From a virus, in IMG/VR virus record IMGVR_UViG_3300030616_000090, positions 1-21,057 of that record: DNA of 21,057 bases. One strand, 5' to 3'. Below the pieces are notes generated by a model that was not told where the DNA came from, searched no databases, and saw nothing but the letters and a program-made list of their open reading frames with translations. Of this stretch, positions 1,532 to 21,057 are shown in pieces. Position 1 is the first letter of the stretch; each line of letters opens with the position of its first letter. The position numbers were made by a program, and so were the translations under genes.

Positions 1532-1539
1532 TTTATATA
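1532..1539 (-). promoter_or_regulatory. TATA-box candidate
   Basis: On the minus strand this reads TATATAAA, about 22 bases before the ATG at 1510, a distance compatible with a nearly leaderless archaeal transcript. On the plus strand the same site reads TCGTAAGGTTTATATA, sharing TCGTAAGGTTTA with the candidate promoter at 10351-10366. The direction of use is therefore uncertain. Confidence 0.35.
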
Positions 1540-1547
1540 GTACCTCT

Positions 1548-1650
1548 GATTTGAGAATAAGCCATTCTAAGGCGTTGTAATGTTAGGGGGTATAATACCA
1601 TTAGGTAAAATAGTTTTTGCCTTAGAGGGGCACTACAAGCAATCCTCAGC
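1548..1650 (-). repeat. Inverted-copy structured element, left copy
   Basis: On the minus strand this 103-nt segment aligns end to end with 11804-11906 on the plus strand, roughly 73% identical by hand alignment. Conserved blocks are GAGGATTGCTTGTA, GCAAAAACTATTT, TAATGGTAT, ATTACA and TTAGAATGGCTTATTCT. TTGTAGTG can pair with CATTACAA, and the last block forms a TTAGAAT/ATTCT(C)AA hairpin. It fills the gap between the genes ending at 1678 and starting at 1510. No ORF runs through it. It could be a structured RNA or a DNA element. Confidence 0.7.
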
Positions 1651-1677
1651 GATATTTAGAGGTACTCCTCGGTGCTA

Positions 1678-1896
1678 TTAATCGAACTCAACTAATGTCC
1701 AGACATCAGCTCTTTGACCTGTACTTCGTCTAAAGAGATTAGTGTTGGTTGGTCTAGACAATATTCGATTGGTTCGTGTTTCTGATACGCCAATTCCATT
1801 AGCTATTGTAGTTAGATGGGCAAATCTACTTTGTCCATTAGTCCTCCTTTGTCGGAAGAACTCTACAATATCATTCTTTCCACCATGTTTTGTCAT
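1678..1896 (-). CDS. Winged-helix/HTH candidate, 72 residues
   Basis: The protein has an arrangement DIVEFFRQRR - LTTIANGIGVSETRTNRIL - FRRSTGQRADVWTLVEFD, which fits helix 1, a helix-turn-helix with an Arg-rich recognition helix, and a beta wing ending in a tryptophan strand. It would be a compact DNA-binding regulator. The Shine-Dalgarno GGAGAG lies nine bases before the ATG. The left structured element lies directly downstream. No named family was identified. Confidence 0.6.
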   Translation of the reverse strand: MTKHGGKNDIVEFFRQRRTNGQSRFAHLTTIANGIGVSETRTNRILSRPTNTNLFRRSTGQRADVWTLVEFD

Positions 1897-10508: not shown

Positions 10509-11747
10509 ATGAATAGCATTGAGTATAAGCTAGATACAGGAAAGCAAGTACACCTAGAATATGATAGTGTGATTGGTTGCACTAATAAGCTAGGTGAAAC
10601 AATATCCTATGACAGAGGCAATTACAAAGGAGAGGCTAGTGTTAAGAAACATTCTAGGAAACAAGTGATTGATAAGTTGAGGAATAACTATAATGCTAAA
10701 CTAGATAGCCCTGCTGAAATTAAGGAGAAAGAGAGCAATCATACTCTAGTATTAGGAATTTCTAATAAACAGGCTATTAAGCTAGAACAGAATGTTGAGG
10801 AAATCGACACTATTATAGAAACTTATAGCTCATCTAAACATAGACCAGAGGTGAAGTGCAAAGTATTTAACAAGAGGGGTATAGATAGTAAAGTAAAAGA
10901 TAAGAAATCTATAGTTAAAGAAATACCTATTAGAAGTATAGTCCATTTGGGTGGCTATAATAGGAAATTACCAAATAATCCATCTTCTATAGATTTATCT
11001 CTAACTAGAAGTGAAAAAGTTCTTTACACTAGGAATACAAGTATAGGTACAACTGATAACTTAAATCCATTCGGTAGAGCTAGTGAAACATTGGGCTATC
11101 CTTATAGAAGATTACACAAATCCAAAACTTTGATAGATAGTAAAGAGAGGCTAGAGATTGATGTGATTACAGAACACCCTATCTATGTGTATGCTAGTCC
11201 AAAGATGAAGCATAAGGAAACCAAATGGATTATAGATAGTGTATTTGCCACTAGGGTAATGCAAATTTACATAGGCATACTATCTAAAGCTAGGAAAATA
11301 TCTAGTAGGAAAGTAAAGATACCACAATTTCAGGCTAGAACATTGAAAAGGAGAATTAAAACCATCACAGGAAGTCAGCTAATAGAATACCTAGAGAAGA
11401 TTAGGAAGCTAATGATAGAAAATCAATCCAAAACTTTGCACATTAATGGGCTATATAAGTATAATCTACATCAACTAGAATACACAATCAACGATATTAG
11501 AAAGCATGGCTATATTGGTGAATACAAAAAGATAAGAGCTAGGGATAAGAGATTACATAGATATAAAGATAGCATTGTTTGGATTGATAGCAAAATTAAG
11601 CTAGTTAATACAACATCTAGGAAAAAGCTATCGGACAGAGTGGCTATTAATGTAGATAGCGTAACAAAGTGGAACATGGAATACGAAAACCAAACTATGC
11701 AAACATCTAGTAATAATATATCAGATAGGTTTAGCTATATAGCATAA
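10509..11747 (+). CDS. Basic orphan protein, 412 residues
   Basis: The only long + strand gene in the central region. It is strongly basic throughout (for example RRIKTITGSQLIEYLEKIRK) and Ser/Thr/Asn-rich, with no transmembrane segment, zinc motif, or catalytic motif that I recognise. A segment EHPIYVYASPKMKHKE followed by helices is the most structured-looking part. AGGTGG lies ten bases before the ATG and codon use matches its neighbours, so it is genuinely coding. A nucleic-acid-binding role is inferred from charge only. Large non-coding stretches on both sides make an origin- or element-binding protein an attractive but unproven idea. Confidence 0.7.
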   Translation: MNSIEYKLDTGKQVHLEYDSVIGCTNKLGETISYDRGNYKGEASVKKHSRKQVIDKLRNNYNAKLDSPAEIKEKESNHTLVLGISNKQAIKLEQNVEEIDTIIETYSSSKHRPEVKCKVFNKRGIDSKVKDKKSIVKEIPIRSIVHLGGYNRKLPNNPSSIDLSLTRSEKVLYTRNTSIGTTDNLNPFGRASETLGYPYRRLHKSKTLIDSKERLEIDVITEHPIYVYASPKMKHKETKWIIDSVFATRVMQIYIGILSKARKISSRKVKIPQFQARTLKRRIKTITGSQLIEYLEKIRKLMIENQSKTLHINGLYKYNLHQLEYTINDIRKHGYIGEYKKIRARDKRLHRYKDSIVWIDSKIKLVNTTSRKKLSDRVAINVDSVTKWNMEYENQTMQTSSNNISDRFSYIA

Positions 11748-11775: not shown

Positions 11776-11803
11776 AATGAGGTCTAGGATATACTCTAGA
11801 TTT

Positions 11804-11906
11804 GCTTGAGGATTGCTTGTAATGGGGCTAGAAAGCAAAAACTATTTGGGGTAATGGTATAGGTAGGGTAGATATTACATAGGCTTAGAATGGCTTATTC
11901 TAAATC
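11804..11906 (+). repeat. Inverted-copy structured element, right copy
   Basis: Diverged copy, about 73% identical, of the element at 1548-1650, in opposite orientation. TGTAAT (11818-11823) pairs with ATTACA (11874-11879), and TTAGAAT (11885-11891) with ATTCTAA (11897-11903). Three CCC tracts of the left copy are replaced by GGG here. It follows the 412-residue gene and precedes an AT-rich tract. Confidence 0.7.
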
Positions 11907-11955
11907 TAGCTTTTCGCAACAGGATAATAATAATATTAATATAATATATATATTA

Positions 11956-12500: not shown

Positions 12501-12671
12501 TACTAATGAGCTATGATAAATCTAGGTGGGTAAAGCCCAACCCAATACATAGCTGAATAGGTCAATACAACACTATAAAGTAATGTATAGGTAAAACTAA
12601 CACATAGAGGGTAGGGTGGGCGTACCCTATATATATTCTAGGTACCTAATGAATTCAAAAGAAAAGAAGAT

Positions 12672-12694
12672 AGGCTAGGTAATTAATCTAGCCT
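12672..12694. repeat. 7-bp inverted repeat
   Basis: AGGCTAG and CTAGCCT flank a nine-base AT loop in the convergent intergenic region. It may be a transcription terminator or a protein site. Confidence 0.4.
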
Positions 12695-12862
12695 GTTTGC
12701 CCTATCTATTAGGGGTGAAATTGAGCTATCCCTAGTAATGAGCAAATGCCCACTCTCTAGGGGTATTACTATTATACTAGGGGGATAGTAAACTTTGCCA
12801 ATCATCTTTTCACCTAGCTATTAACTAAGTATTATATATATACCTAGCTGTTCAGGTGAGGT

Positions 12863-13489: not shown

Positions 13490-13690
13490 ATTGAAACAAC
13501 TAGGTTCTTATTGTTCACAACTAGCCTCATATTGAAACAACAAGCACCATCTAGTTCACATCTAGTCTACATCTAGATACATGTAGATAGCCTATTGAAA
13601 CAACAAGCTAACATCTAGTAGACAATTAATGCCTAATGCCTAGATACAACTAGTATACATCTAGTAACCTATTGTATACATCTAGTATCA
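13490..13690. repeat. Iteron-like direct repeats
   Basis: ACATCTAG occurs five times (13558, 13569, 13611, 13657, 13678). ATTGAAACAAC occurs three times (13490, 13531, 13594), the last two extended to ATTGAAACAACAAGC. There is no gene. The arrangement is reminiscent of a replication origin or a multi-site control region between divergent transcripts. Confidence 0.55.
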
Positions 13691-15031: not shown

Positions 15032-16540
15032 GTGGTGGTTAATATACCACCTTGTTTATTTATTATGACATTTATAAAGCAATTAGATAAGAAGCAACTG
15101 CAAATACTCAAATATGCTAATGACCCAGTAGCATTTACTACTGATTTATTAGGATTAAAATGTGAGGACTTTCATCAAGAGTGGTTAAATGCATTCAATG
15201 ATAATAGATTCACTCTATTATTAGCACCAAGAGGTCATGGTAAGACATCTTTGGTTGGTTCCTACATTCTATGGAGAATAGTAAGGAATAGAAGACTTAG
15301 ATGTATAATAGTAACAATTAATCAAGATAAAGCTAATGCAATGATGACATTCATCCAAGAAAATCTTGAGAATAATGATAGACTTAAGAGAGTATTTGGA
15401 GATTTCAAAGGACCTTTATGGTCTAGAAATGAAATAAGAGTTAAACAGCATGCTAAGGGAAAAATACCTCATAATGAACCTACCCTAAAAGTTCTAGGAG
15501 TTGGTTCTAGAATTATATCAGGTCATTATGAATTAATAGTATTAGATGATATTACTGATGATGAGAACTCTCATACAGAAACTCGTAGACGTAATCTAGA
15601 AAGTTGGTATAATAAAGAAGTAGTTGGAACATTTCTAGCTAATAGCAAAGTTATTGATATTGGCACTAGATGGCATGAAGATGATATTCATAATTACTTT
15701 ATTAATAAGGCTGGATTTAAAACTTTAGTTTATAAAGCTCTACTTAATGAGCAAGAAGTTAATGATGGTAAACCAGCTAAAGTTCTTTGGCCAGAACATT
15801 TACCTTGGGATAAGAATATGGCTAAGGAATATAATTTACCTGAAACAACATTAACTCTACAATTTATTAGAGAACACCAAGGAGAACTAGCATTTCAAAT
15901 GCAATATCAAAATAATATTATCCCTGCTGGTATTGCTAAATTCAAAGCTGAATGGCTAGATAATGCAGTTAATAATTATCGTAAACATGCGTTATCTGGA
16001 CCTATTGGCATGAGAAAATATATGGGAGTAGATATTGGTGGTGAGGATAGTATTAGTGATTGGTGTGTATTCACTGTAATTGGAATAGACTCTGATGGTC
16101 TTATATACACAGTAGAACAAATTAGAACACACGCATCTTTACAAAGACAAATAGATATTATCAGGGGATTAGATGAGAAACACCATGTTTCTAGAATAGG
16201 AATAGAAACTGCTGCACAACAGAAACTCATAGCATCTGATTGGATTAAGAACAATCCAGGATTACCAATTATGACTATTAAATCATCAAGAGCTAATGAT
16301 AAAGAGACTAGAACCGATAGACTTTCTATAATGTTTGAAACTAATAGAATATGTCTAGACCCAAAACTAATACATCTAATTGATGAACTAAAATTATATC
16401 CAAGGGCTAAACATGATGATTGCATAGATAGTTTATCTTTTGCAATTGAGAGTGCTCAGGATAAAGGATTCATTGATTGGTCTAAAGCTACTGATACTAT
16501 TATGACTAGGAAGAGAGATTACTCTATTGAGGTAATCTAA
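15032..16540 (+). CDS. terL: Terminase large subunit (ATPase-nuclease)
   Basis: This is the DNA-packaging motor. Numbered from GTG 15032: Walker A APRGHGKTS (65-73), Walker B ELIVLDD (167-173), coupling motif IDIGTRWHEDD (208-218). The RNase H-like nuclease has MGVDIGGEDS (Asp334), IGIETA (Glu392) and HDDCIDSL (Asp462/463/466). About 500 residues is the normal length. The start is uncertain: GTG 15032 has no Shine-Dalgarno, ATG 15065 none, but GGTGG-ttaat-ATA places AUA at 15044. The conserved region begins after 15065, so all options leave the domains whole. Confidence 0.93.
   Translation: MVVNIPPCLFIMTFIKQLDKKQLQILKYANDPVAFTTDLLGLKCEDFHQEWLNAFNDNRFTLLLAPRGHGKTSLVGSYILWRIVRNRRLRCIIVTINQDKANAMMTFIQENLENNDRLKRVFGDFKGPLWSRNEIRVKQHAKGKIPHNEPTLKVLGVGSRIISGHYELIVLDDITDDENSHTETRRRNLESWYNKEVVGTFLANSKVIDIGTRWHEDDIHNYFINKAGFKTLVYKALLNEQEVNDGKPAKVLWPEHLPWDKNMAKEYNLPETTLTLQFIREHQGELAFQMQYQNNIIPAGIAKFKAEWLDNAVNNYRKHALSGPIGMRKYMGVDIGGEDSISDWCVFTVIGIDSDGLIYTVEQIRTHASLQRQIDIIRGLDEKHHVSRIGIETAAQQKLIASDWIKNNPGLPIMTIKSSRANDKETRTDRLSIMFETNRICLDPKLIHLIDELKLYPRAKHDDCIDSLSFAIESAQDKGFIDWSKATDTIMTRKRDYSIEVI
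15034..15051 (+). promoter_or_regulatory. Hairpin at the terminase start
   Basis: GGTGGT-TAATAT-ACCACC is a perfect 6-bp stem whose 5' arm is also the only Shine-Dalgarno-like sequence for the gene. Folding would hide the ribosome site, so translation may be regulated or temperature-sensitive. Confidence 0.4.
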
Positions 16541-16568: not shown

Positions 16569-16934
16569 ATGGCTGAAGAATCGTTGGAACAAATTAAGGT
16601 TGGCACTAAACCCATAGAACGATATGTATCTGCTTATCTATTCGCCAAAAGTGAAGATAAGGATGCAGTAAAGATAACAGGTAGAGGCCACAATATTAAA
16701 CGATGTATTGATGTGGCTGCTATATTACTTAGAAAATATTTAGAGCCTATAGATTGTAATTTACAAGATGCTTTATCAGCTCTAGAATCTAATGAGATAG
16801 ATAAGGCTAAAGATATTATTAATAAACTTCTAATATGTGAAGTTAATATTGGTAGTGAAGCATATGGGGAGAGATATGTTTCCACAATAGATATTATTAT
16901 AAGAGGAGATAATAAGCATGACAAGACTGACTGA
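16569..16934 (+). CDS. Alba-family chromatin protein, 121 residues
   Basis: IKVGTKPIERYVSAYL, then AVKITGRGHNIKRCIDVAAI and VNIGSEAYGERYVSTIDIII match archaeal Alba (VLIGKKPVMNYV, VIKARGRAISKAVDTVEI, RVGSQ...RVSTIEIAI). Alba dimers coat DNA and RNA. Of the lysine pair Lys16/Lys17 the first is Thr13 and the second, Lys14, is kept. An unusual insertion (residues about 62-88, LQDALSALESNEIDKAKDII) lies between the last helix and the final hairpin. GAGGT precedes the ATG. It overlaps the portal gene by 17 bases. It marks the host as archaeal. Confidence 0.88.
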   Translation: MAEESLEQIKVGTKPIERYVSAYLFAKSEDKDAVKITGRGHNIKRCIDVAAILLRKYLEPIDCNLQDALSALESNEIDKAKDIINKLLICEVNIGSEAYGERYVSTIDIIIRGDNKHDKTD

Positions 16935-18240
16935 TAGAATATTAGGTAAGATTAAATATCTAAGGGATGATGGTCGTCCTCAAACTCTAATAAGAACTGG
17001 AGGTAGTACTGGAGGTAGTGCTTTTGGGGATACTGATAGAACTACTCAAAAGCTAGAGGAATTTTGGAAATATTATAGAGGAGAAGGTACAGTATTTGCT
17101 TCTCTTAATTCAACTGCATATAATACTGTGATGGTAGGATATAATATTACATCTAAGAATCCAGAAGCTAAAAATTTAATATCAGATTCTTGTGATATGC
17201 TTAATCTAGAAGAATCTCTATGGGAAGCAACTAGAGATAGTCTAGTATTTGGAGATTCATTCATAGAGAAACGTAGGAATAGGAAAGGGGATGTAGTTAA
17301 ATTAAAACCAGTAGACCCACGTACAATAGTTATTAATTATAATCAATATGGAGATATTGAATCTTATAAACAGGTTATTGGTGGTAAGACAGTAAATCCT
17401 AAAATCCCTAAGGAAGATATTATCCATTTTAGATTTCTACCTATCCCAGGTTCACCTTATGGTGTATCTCTTATAGAACCTAATGTAGAAGTTATTAAGC
17501 GTAAAGTATCTGTAGAGGAAGCTCTATTCAATGCAATGAAGCGACATGGTACTGGCAAATGGGTTTTATATGTAGGTAATGAGAAGGATGGTCAAATTCC
17601 TCCAGATTCAGTTATGGATAGTATAGCTGAAAAGCTAGAGGATATTAATGACTTAAATGAAGTAGTACTCCCATGGTTTATGCATCTAGAAACTATAGAT
17701 GAGAAAGGTATAGAGGGAGTAGAAGAATATTATGATTATTTCCAAACTCAATTAGTTGTTGGTCTAATGTGTCCTGAGGAAGCCTTAGGTCAAGGTAAAG
17801 GATCCACAGAAGCGACAGCTAGAGTTAAGAGTGTTATGTATGAGAGAATGATTAAATCATACCAAAGAAGATTATCTAAAATTCTTCATGATGAACTATT
17901 TGAAGAGATTTTATTAAAGCAAGGATTTAAGAATGAAACTTATCCAGATTATGCAATTAAAGTTACATTAGAATTTAATTCTGTAACTGAAGAGGATGAA
18001 GCTCTAAAAGCTAAATGGTGGAGTAATATCATAAGAAGCTTTAGAGGTGATATACCATTAACTGGTAATGAGTTTAGAACTGTGTTTGGTTTTCCTACGA
18101 TGGATGGTCTTGATAAACTCATGACTAATCAATCTGATTCTGATGAAGAACCAGAAGAGGAGGAAGAGGAACCTGAGGAGGAAGAACCAAAAGAAGTTAA
18201 TACAGAAGAGGTATACGATGAAGAGACTAATGGAGTTTGA
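16918..18240 (+). CDS. Portal protein, 440 residues
   Basis: It forms the dodecameric portal ring through which DNA enters the capsid. The sequence shows the usual features: DSLVFGDSFIEKRRNRKGDV, LKPVDPRTIVINYN, IIHFRFLPIPGSPYGVSLIE, a long helical region EATARVKSVMYERMIKSYQR, and a C-terminal region ending in a strongly acidic tail (Glu-rich, residues 405-428). Length and position right after the terminase fit HK97-type tailed viruses. AAGAGGAG lies before the ATG, inside the end of the Alba gene. Confidence 0.88.
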   Translation: MTRLTDRILGKIKYLRDDGRPQTLIRTGGSTGGSAFGDTDRTTQKLEEFWKYYRGEGTVFASLNSTAYNTVMVGYNITSKNPEAKNLISDSCDMLNLEESLWEATRDSLVFGDSFIEKRRNRKGDVVKLKPVDPRTIVINYNQYGDIESYKQVIGGKTVNPKIPKEDIIHFRFLPIPGSPYGVSLIEPNVEVIKRKVSVEEALFNAMKRHGTGKWVLYVGNEKDGQIPPDSVMDSIAEKLEDINDLNEVVLPWFMHLETIDEKGIEGVEEYYDYFQTQLVVGLMCPEEALGQGKGSTEATARVKSVMYERMIKSYQRRLSKILHDELFEEILLKQGFKNETYPDYAIKVTLEFNSVTEEDEALKAKWWSNIIRSFRGDIPLTGNEFRTVFGFPTMDGLDKLMTNQSDSDEEPEEEEEEPEEEEPKEVNTEEVYDEETNGV

Positions 18241-19050: not shown

Positions 19051-21057
19051 ATGCCTACACATTGTGGTTTAAAAGACTCTAAAGGTTATTTCTGCAGATG
19101 GGGTTCATCTGGAAAGAAATATTATTATACAAAGGATAACAAACAATCTATGGAGAGAGCAAGAGCTAAGGCTAATGCACAAGGTGCAGCTGCTCATGCT
19201 TCTGGATATAGTGGTGCTGAAAAGAGTTTAAATCCAGATTACTATTCTAGAGCTAAACCATATTATAGATTTGAGGCAAATACACTTAAGGATGAATTAA
19301 AATCTAATGATTGGACTAATAAGAAACTCCTTGTAGATATTAAATGTGATGGACTTAGATTAAGTCTAGGTAAGATTGGTGGTAAACCATTTTGTTATGT
19401 AGACCCTGACACTCTAAAACAGAAATCACCTGACGTATCTAAAAGATTACCTCTAATCATTAAAGAATTAAATACTATACCTGATAACACTATATTGGAT
19501 GGTGAATTTATTGCAGTTAAAGGAAATGAAATCTTACACCGTACAACAGCTAATTCGCTACTTAATGCAACTAAATTTGCACCAGAGAGATTGGCAAGAT
19601 ATGCTCACGTATTTATCTTCGATATCTTATATTTCGATGGAGAGGACATACGCAATCAGCCACTTCATGAAAGGGTTGAGTATCTCCAAAGAATTGATTC
19701 AACTAAACATATCTGGATAGAACGAATGTCTACTTCCCTTGATAAGGAAGCAGATGCTTATATCATCAATGGTTCTGATATAGATTCTATTATGAATGCT
19801 GTTGGTAAGATAATGCATGATAAGATTGGTCGTCCTAAATTCATTGCAGAGGGTGTAATGCTCAAGGATATTAATCATCAATATGAGCAACCACAAAATC
19901 ATGGATGGGGCAAACTAAAGGAATTCTATGAAGTAGATTGTGTTGCATGGGATAAGAAATTAGTTAAGGGACAAGATGATGTCTGGAATTATTTCTTAGG
20001 CATTAATGTAGATAAAGATATCTATACTCATCTACCTGATGAATATAAGGTACCAAAGCAATTAATGTCTTATTATGGTAAGACGAATAGTACATCTATC
20101 AAAGCTGATATAGGAAAGGTATTAAGAGTTGCATCTGAGGAAGTTATTAAATATGATAATGATGGTTATCCCTATTATAGAGGATATATCAGTAGAGCAC
20201 TAGAACCTGTTCCTGAAAAGAATATTTCTGATACCTATGAAGTATTAGAGAAACTATCTCAATTTCAACCTAAGAGAATGCCAATAGAAGAGATATCTAG
20301 ATTAGAGAATACAGAACACCCAACAACTCAAGAGGAGGTAGTAAGTCCTCCATCAGGTTCGAGAGATCCAGAACCAAGAACTGAAACACCTGGAGAAGAA
20401 ACTATACAATCTAAAATGCTCTCTTATAAATATCCACAACAGATGGCTGATATAGTTAGATTAGCTGAGATAGTTAATGATGAGATATTAGAATGGGTAG
20501 ATAAGAAGAGAATACCAAAGAAGATATATACAGAATTAGCTAAGCCCAATGAACCTCTACCAAAGAGATTATATATAGATCCTAAGGCTGGTAGGGCATG
20601 GGCACAAATGCATTTCAGAGGTATAGAACCTGAGAAGTATGAGGCTTTTAAAGATAAGAAGATGCCTCTATGGAAAACACTAGTAGGACAATCTGTTCAT
20701 ATAGATTTACGAATTGATTATCCAGGAATGGATAAATTAGTTCAATATGTAATAACAGAGAATGATGTACAAGGTATGATTAGAATGATGCTTGGTGAGA
20801 AGAGAGAAACTGCTGGTGGAGTTATGAATGTCCAACATTCTATGGTAGTATCTAAACCTAGTGGAGAACCTCCAGAAGGCCCTGAGAAGTTCTACAAATC
20901 TGTAGATCCTGAATCTACCAACCCAGAAGATTTCGCACCATCTATTAATGAGGAGGGTGCTAAGATGGCTGAGGAAATAGATTTAGGAGATCCATATACT
21001 GAAGAGAATTCATATTGGATTAAACCAGGGGGTATAGGAGCTACCAAGAATACCTAT
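19051..21057 (+). CDS. ATP-dependent DNA ligase fused to a LigD-type phosphoesterase-like domain (open at right edge)
   Basis: 669 codons without a stop. Residues 1-54 hold a small Cys/aromatic domain (CRWGSSGKKYYYT, then a helix RARAKANAQGAAAHASGY). Residues 90-300 form the ligase core: motif I DIKCDGLR (Lys98), III ILDGEF, IIIa FIFDILYFDG, IV EGVMLK (267-272), V WGKLKEF (Lys288/290). An OB-like region follows and a Pro/Glu linker (about 395-425). Residues 500-669 include VHIDLRI (His550, Asp552, Arg554) and IKPGGIGATKNTY, resembling the 3'-phosphoesterase domain of LigD. Start ATG follows the HIT stop with no gap. Confidence 0.82.
   Translation, partial: MPTHCGLKDSKGYFCRWGSSGKKYYYTKDNKQSMERARAKANAQGAAAHASGYSGAEKSLNPDYYSRAKPYYRFEANTLKDELKSNDWTNKKLLVDIKCDGLRLSLGKIGGKPFCYVDPDTLKQKSPDVSKRLPLIIKELNTIPDNTILDGEFIAVKGNEILHRTTANSLLNATKFAPERLARYAHVFIFDILYFDGEDIRNQPLHERVEYLQRIDSTKHIWIERMSTSLDKEADAYIINGSDIDSIMNAVGKIMHDKIGRPKFIAEGVMLKDINHQYEQPQNHGWGKLKEFYEVDCVAWDKKLVKGQDDVWNYFLGINVDKDIYTHLPDEYKVPKQLMSYYGKTNSTSIKADIGKVLRVASEEVIKYDNDGYPYYRGYISRALEPVPEKNISDTYEVLEKLSQFQPKRMPIEEISRLENTEHPTTQEEVVSPPSGSRDPEPRTETPGEETIQSKMLSYKYPQQMADIVRLAEIVNDEILEWVDKKRIPKKIYTELAKPNEPLPKRLYIDPKAGRAWAQMHFRGIEPEKYEAFKDKKMPLWKTLVGQSVHIDLRIDYPGMDKLVQYVITENDVQGMIRMMLGEKRETAGGVMNVQHSMVVSKPSGEPPEGPEKFYKSVDPESTNPEDFAPSINEEGAKMAEEIDLGDPYTEENSYWIKPGGIGATKNTY

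Follow-up and report, generated by a model that had tools for sequence, protein, structure and literature searches.

The window, a stretch of viral DNA of 21,057 bases, contains two similar non-coding stretches in inverted orientation (copies A and B), which look more like remnants of mobile DNA than like a special viral RNA. They belong to a family of about 18 distinct imperfect palindromes, 114-160 nt each, dispersed in a lineage of head-tailed viruses that have TerL and the MCP in common. We consider it reasonably probable that both are decayed members of a non-autonomous repeat family of the MITE or ERIC kind, one that was moved by a transposase in trans.

Copies A and B in the window

Within the window, the two longest inverted matches are positions 1548-1661 on the minus strand and 11794-11906 on the plus strand (74% identity, E = 3.9e-13 by blastn). 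The best local match of copy A in the window is copy B, with a score of 95 against 36 for the runner-up, and the likeness of the two is far above chance. The initial annotation, made from the letters of the window, had reported this inverted pair, and the pair is real. Also correct were its 13-nt core GCAAAAACTATTT, its identical block CTTAGAATGGCTTATTCT, the exchange of C-runs for G-runs between A and B, and the non-coding character of both copies, as no ORF of at least 50 aa overlaps either. It had called the element nameless, and neither copy matches any Rfam family at the gathering threshold. The ends given for the element were too narrow; the copies and the genes around them are as follows.

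1539-1666, minus strand: copy A of the repeat, 128 nt (blastn match to B, both arms in the arm (TIR) profile, fold energy)
1666-1658 and 1547-1539, minus strand: closing ends of copy A, AGTACCTCT and AGAGGTACT
1589-1620, minus strand: core of copy A, GCAAAAACTATTTTACCTAATGGTATTATACC; the core consensus of the family is GCAATATCTTTTCTTCCTAATGGTATTATACC (18-member alignment; L317, L318, L313, L315)
11780-11909, plus strand: copy B of the repeat, 130 nt (blastn match to A, 5' arm in the arm profile)
11796-11803 and 11902-11909, plus strand: inner closing pair of copy B, CTAGATTT and AAATCTAG
11835-11869, plus strand: core of copy B, GCAAAAACTATTTGGGGTAATGGTATAGGTAGGGT, with TAATGGTATAGGTAGGGT in common with copy G008c (18-member alignment)
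1678-1896, minus strand: ORF of 72 aa on the strand of copy A, ending at a stop about 11 nt ahead of it (no PHROG or Pfam match)
10509-11747, plus strand: ORF of 412 aa on the strand of copy B, ending at a stop about 32 nt ahead of it (no PHROG or Pfam match)
15032-16540, plus strand: terminase large subunit (TerL), the lineage-defining gene (phrog_38, E = 3e-82; relatives 60-65% and 42% identical)
16918-18240: portal protein

The arms of copy A score 31.7 and 7.4 bits in the arm profile and the 5' arm of copy B scores 23.1 bits. The 3' arm of copy B alone is too diverged and was missed by the profile; homology of copy B to related copies extends to 11780 at its 5' end. The element had also been described as duplicated, which is not established. 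Copy A scores 79 against copy B and also 79 against copy G008f of another virus, so A and B need not have arisen by duplication within one virus.

Several other features of the window were observed. Next to copy A, positions 1409-1538 on the minus strand hold, as read from the sequence, a TATA-like CTATATAAA together with an ORF of 33 aa, MNKQKIIDGIKWAITGGLACLGFIVIILEIFFE, that contains a single hydrophobic stretch. Non-coding positions 12641-12820 form a strong multi-branched hairpin region (fold energy -56 kcal/mol). Ahead of the late genes, non-coding positions 13490-13690 carry several imperfect units like ATTGAAACAAC and ACATCTAGTA; this part may serve replication or regulation. At positions 19051-21057 on the plus strand, among the structural genes, an ORF open at the window end carries an ATP-dependent DNA ligase domain.

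A dispersed repeat between genes

Alignment of the family revealed that, in nearly all members, the 5' arm and the reverse complement of the 3' arm are versions of a single inverted repeat (AGGATAYMCTCTAGATTTGCYTGAGGATTG...). Thus, the repeat is a short element with terminal inverted repeats, as MITEs are, and its arms align to one consensus. Patterns taken from the 5' arm alone matched mainly coding sequence of unrelated phages and were discarded. A first profile, covering the 5' portion of the six members found first, yielded further copies, and an arm profile was then built from the aligned arms. We used a sequence profile rather than a covariance model because the alignment had no consensus structure. 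At a threshold of at least 12 bits, the arm profile matched 30 times in 0.70 Mb of lineage sequence; the two controls, 3.5 Mb of first-order Markov shuffles and 2.1 Mb of unrelated phage contigs, had no match. Correctly spaced arm pairs numbered 17 in the lineage and 0 in each of the two controls, and the arm-to-arm span of pairs found by the profile was about 120-148 nt. Copies outside the building set were recovered in G008 (9175, 56004-56132, 84086 and 103331) and in G011 (27783-27907 and 37370). A search of related viral contigs, as the initial annotation had proposed, therefore does bring up the element again. One exact pattern run against genome contigs gave 16 matches, all in bacterial records and none in archaeal ones, and searches of phages and plasmids with the element returned short matches only (E of at least 0.4).

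Copy number among the lineage viruses ranges from none to six, and most lineage contigs examined had no detected copy. There are six copies in G008, four in G011 and two each in the window, in G002 (one of them weak) and in L180. Other records with a copy are L036, L125, G013/L158, L276, whose copy is near-identical to one of those in L180, and L128, where a single arm is clear. The closest relative of a copy is often in a different virus, and arms are strongly diverged between copies within one virus. The core and the full length are kept despite 26-50% divergence.

Placement of the copies is intergenic. All 20 copies tested had less than 15% ORF cover, where 3.05 would be expected at random and 2000 trials of random placement reached a maximum of 8. 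For most copies, an adjacent ORF is no more than about 40 nt away, and several, A and B included, directly follow a stop codon. From virus to virus the copies occupy different positions, and they face the flanking genes in either orientation. The copy shared by L180 and L276 lies beside the MCP module, in a gap whose orthologue is empty in other viruses. In three distant viruses (L036, L037/G002 and L161/G011), a shared gap upstream of a tail-fibre-like gene does contain a copy, though not always in the same orientation; among the upstream sequences listed for other viruses with an orthologous tail-fibre-like gene, no copy was found. As with MITEs, there are multiple copies at non-orthologous intergenic places.

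Two other explanations were weighed. The first makes the repeat a DNA site that serves recombination, replication or packaging. The shared gap adjoining the tail-fibre-like genes speaks for such a site, as does the finding that the first two copies found were inverted in four contigs. Against it, the six copies of G008 and the four of G011 are scattered and occur in both orientations, most lineage contigs examined show no copy, and arms are strongly diverged among the copies of one virus. We regard a DNA site of this kind as highly improbable. The narrower suggestion of the initial annotation, a replication or packaging element, is unlikely because copy number runs from none to six, positions vary and most lineage contigs are without a detected copy. 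The idea of inverted copy pairs flanking the late genes was abandoned in view of the two orientations in G008 and G011.

The second is that the copies are remnants of a small protein gene, or a repeat readable in frame like the Rickettsia palindromic elements. A 64-aa ORF spans the copy in L122/G008b, open frames of 50-55 aa occur in G008a and L180b, and one frame of several copies gives an S[NH]ADAISFLPNG-like reading. Stops interrupt that frame in several copies (A, B, L185 and G008c among them), the open frame of G008a is another one, and the differences between L122 and L185 fall mostly at first and second codon positions. The 64-aa ORF has no Pfam, PHROG or phage tblastn match, and it was dropped as a possible parent gene. 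No copy lies within an ORF of at least 80 aa, the arrangement that in-frame insertion in protein genes would give. Taken together, a coding origin seems to us very unlikely.

If the repeat is mobile DNA, it would have moved through the genomes of the lineage in the manner of non-autonomous MITE- or ERIC-like elements. The transposase recognising its arms would have acted in trans, with the host or a co-resident element as its source. Insertions would have been tolerated only between genes, often after a stop codon or before the first tail-fibre-like gene, and the inserted copies would have diverged afterwards. The folding of single copies would then be a by-product of the inverted-repeat arms.

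We looked for direct traces of such movement. Direct repeats near the copy ends averaged 6.1 bp, compared with 6.0 bp at random places, which gives no sign of target-site duplication. In ten virus records there was no Y1 transposase and no TnpB-type domain above the cut-off, and the Pfam matches listed for the ORFs of G008 and G011, one list holding the best 25 of 49 families, include no transposase. Since neither a transposase nor target duplications were found, we infer mobility by a trans-acting transposase, and the repeat works like a MITE with formal membership unproven. Near-identical copies that would suggest movement were not found, and G007 and G008, two records of one virus, do not differ in the presence or absence of any copy; thus, recent movement is not demonstrated. 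Empty sites were found only in distant viruses. Persistence of the core and full length at this divergence is not required of a dead element and counts against the mobile reading, as does the failure of the one exact pattern run against genome contigs to bring up a cellular copy.

Folding of the repeat

The initial annotation had proposed a structured RNA with changes that keep pairing. The reading that bears on this takes the repeat for a functional RNA structure or a hairpin at the 3' end, transcribed together with the upstream gene and folded through an inner CTRAGGC/GCCTYAG stem; it would signal processing, stabilisation or termination, or be a small regulatory RNA. It agrees with the position of most copies within about 40 nt of an ORF and of several, including A and B, after a stop codon, and with the kept orientation and length of the core. 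Single copies can fold well: relative to shuffles, copy A has z = -4.5 and -5.8 on its two strands, L036 has -3.3 and L158 -3.6. The inner stem keeps more pairs than the remainder of the repeat, and its pair 55-130 is A-U in 9, G-C in 5 and G-U in 3 of the 18 sequences.

Other results oppose it. RNAalifold returned no consensus structure for the 18 members. The fold of copy B is no stronger than those of its shuffled versions (z = -0.7), and the same holds for L185 and L125. Neither strand is favoured by the fold energies of the copies (A, -33 and -37; L036, -36 and -49; L122, -43 and -36; L180b, -27 and -35), nor are arm mismatches skewed to G-U over A-C (21 vs 15, with 89 others). The claim of a structured RNA with pair-keeping changes is not supported. 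The pairing of TGTARTG with ATTACA is present in A and B as had been described but is not visible in the other aligned members. Mixed orientation to the flanking genes and the lack of a detected copy in most lineage contigs examined likewise speak against an RNA function.

The 3' arm of a copy is rarely the top match for its own 5' arm, with a mean score of 22.9 for own arms and 20.6 for arms of different copies. Given these near-equal scores and the mismatch counts, the complementarity of the arms is mostly inherited from the shared arm. Covariation, which the initial annotation had put forward as a check, gave a weak excess over shuffles when folds were imposed, but no alifold consensus. With the fold of A imposed on the alignment, 51% of cells were paired, where shuffles gave 48.7%. 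As many paired cells occurred in 10 of 500 shuffles, and 17 of 500 reached the covariation score. With the fold of G008b, the corresponding counts were 22 of 500 for paired cells and 7 of 500 for covariation. An excess of this size can occur in unconstrained relatives.

We keep a hairpin role as a possibility because the inner stem retains more pairs than the rest, and consider the functional RNA as a whole unlikely. In a variant of this reading, the repeat is a selected, conserved hairpin that the viruses themselves spread through their genomes as a portable RNA module for 3' ends or regulation, its core and length kept despite the strong divergence of the arms; we think it quite unlikely.

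A sliding fold-energy scan of intergenic DNA turned up other strong hairpins, unrelated to the present repeat. A small hairpin (YYYAAWGCA, 16-34 nt, YGCTTRRR) was also noticed, mostly upstream of a tail-fibre-like gene and with a stretch like TATGTT(T)TTTTTGTTAG after it. It lies at these positions:

L036, 7907, plus strand
L320, 2256, plus strand (G002, 18256)
L155, 12516, plus strand
L162, 15555, plus strand
L166, 10280, plus strand
L170, 6740, plus strand
L171, 14964, plus strand
L174, 15246, plus strand
L177, 18036, plus strand
L178, 17337, plus strand
L181, 6926, plus strand
G008, 67463, minus strand

The outer stem of this hairpin varies on both sides between viruses (CCCAA/TTGGG, TCCAA/TTGGA, TCTAA/TTAGA and TTCAA/TTGAA) and, for this reason, the hairpin may be a real conserved RNA. 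A second hairpin, AGAGATAGG.ATA ... TATCCTATCGARTT.CTG, is common to L125 (about 861-1040) and L128 (about 1521-1700), in long non-coding stretches upstream of TerL.

Carrier viruses and known palindromic repeats

The MCP was located in L036 and L128 and at 30 more loci, and it is 24-28% identical to the MCPs of haloarchaeal tailed viruses. G008 (115 kb) and G011 (48 kb) both contain the lineage TerL, and their pooled ORFs match models of RadA/RadB, archaeal Xpf and Hef, and family-B polymerase. From this MCP likeness and these matches, the host of the lineage is probably archaeal. G008 (L313-L315) also carries a long series of nucleotide-sugar, epimerase, sulfotransferase, radical-SAM and methyltransferase genes and a ribonucleotide reductase. 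In L127 (2027-4081, plus strand), the portal ORF aligns to its relatives in two pieces, residues 1-301 and 632-685; about 330 residues are thus inserted, possibly as an intein.

Interspersed palindromic repeats are well known from cellular genomes and giant viruses, and a family with at most six copies per record would extend the pattern to probably archaeal tailed viruses. We found no reports of such repeats in archaeal tailed viruses in the open-licence papers searched. Were the arms to match a host transposon, the repeat could tie uncultivated viruses to their hosts. A more general lesson is that, in a comparison limited to two sequences, worn copies of a palindromic repeat can pass for an RNA with covariation.

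Among known systems, MITEs resemble the repeat in being short (<500 bp) and AT-rich, with inverted-repeat ends, several intergenic copies, no transposase gene and stem-loop folding; they differ in that the present repeat was found with neither target duplications nor a partner transposon. The direct repeats of MITEs fade with age (PMC10969869). That paper sets out the architecture of prokaryotic MITEs and names the Rickettsia palindromic elements. In viruses, PMC6004678, a survey with an emphasis on pandoraviruses, reports ten MITE families from 5170 viral genomes, among them families in pandoraviruses and polydnaviruses. The SMN1 and SM3A MITEs of Sulfolobus islandicus (PMC3718332) are likewise archaeal and non-autonomous, at 164-320 bp, but are chromosomal and tied to the transposases ISC1733 and ISC1058; we set them beside the present repeat by description only. 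Rickettsia palindromic elements are palindromes of about 150 nt with an open frame in some copies, as here, but they lie in frame within protein genes, whereas the present repeat is never inside a long ORF. Palindromes of the ERIC, REP and RUP type are also imperfect, about 100-150 nt long, intergenic, often near stop codons and strongly diverged between copies; they are bacterial and chromosomal, whereas the present repeat is viral, with at most six copies seen per record.
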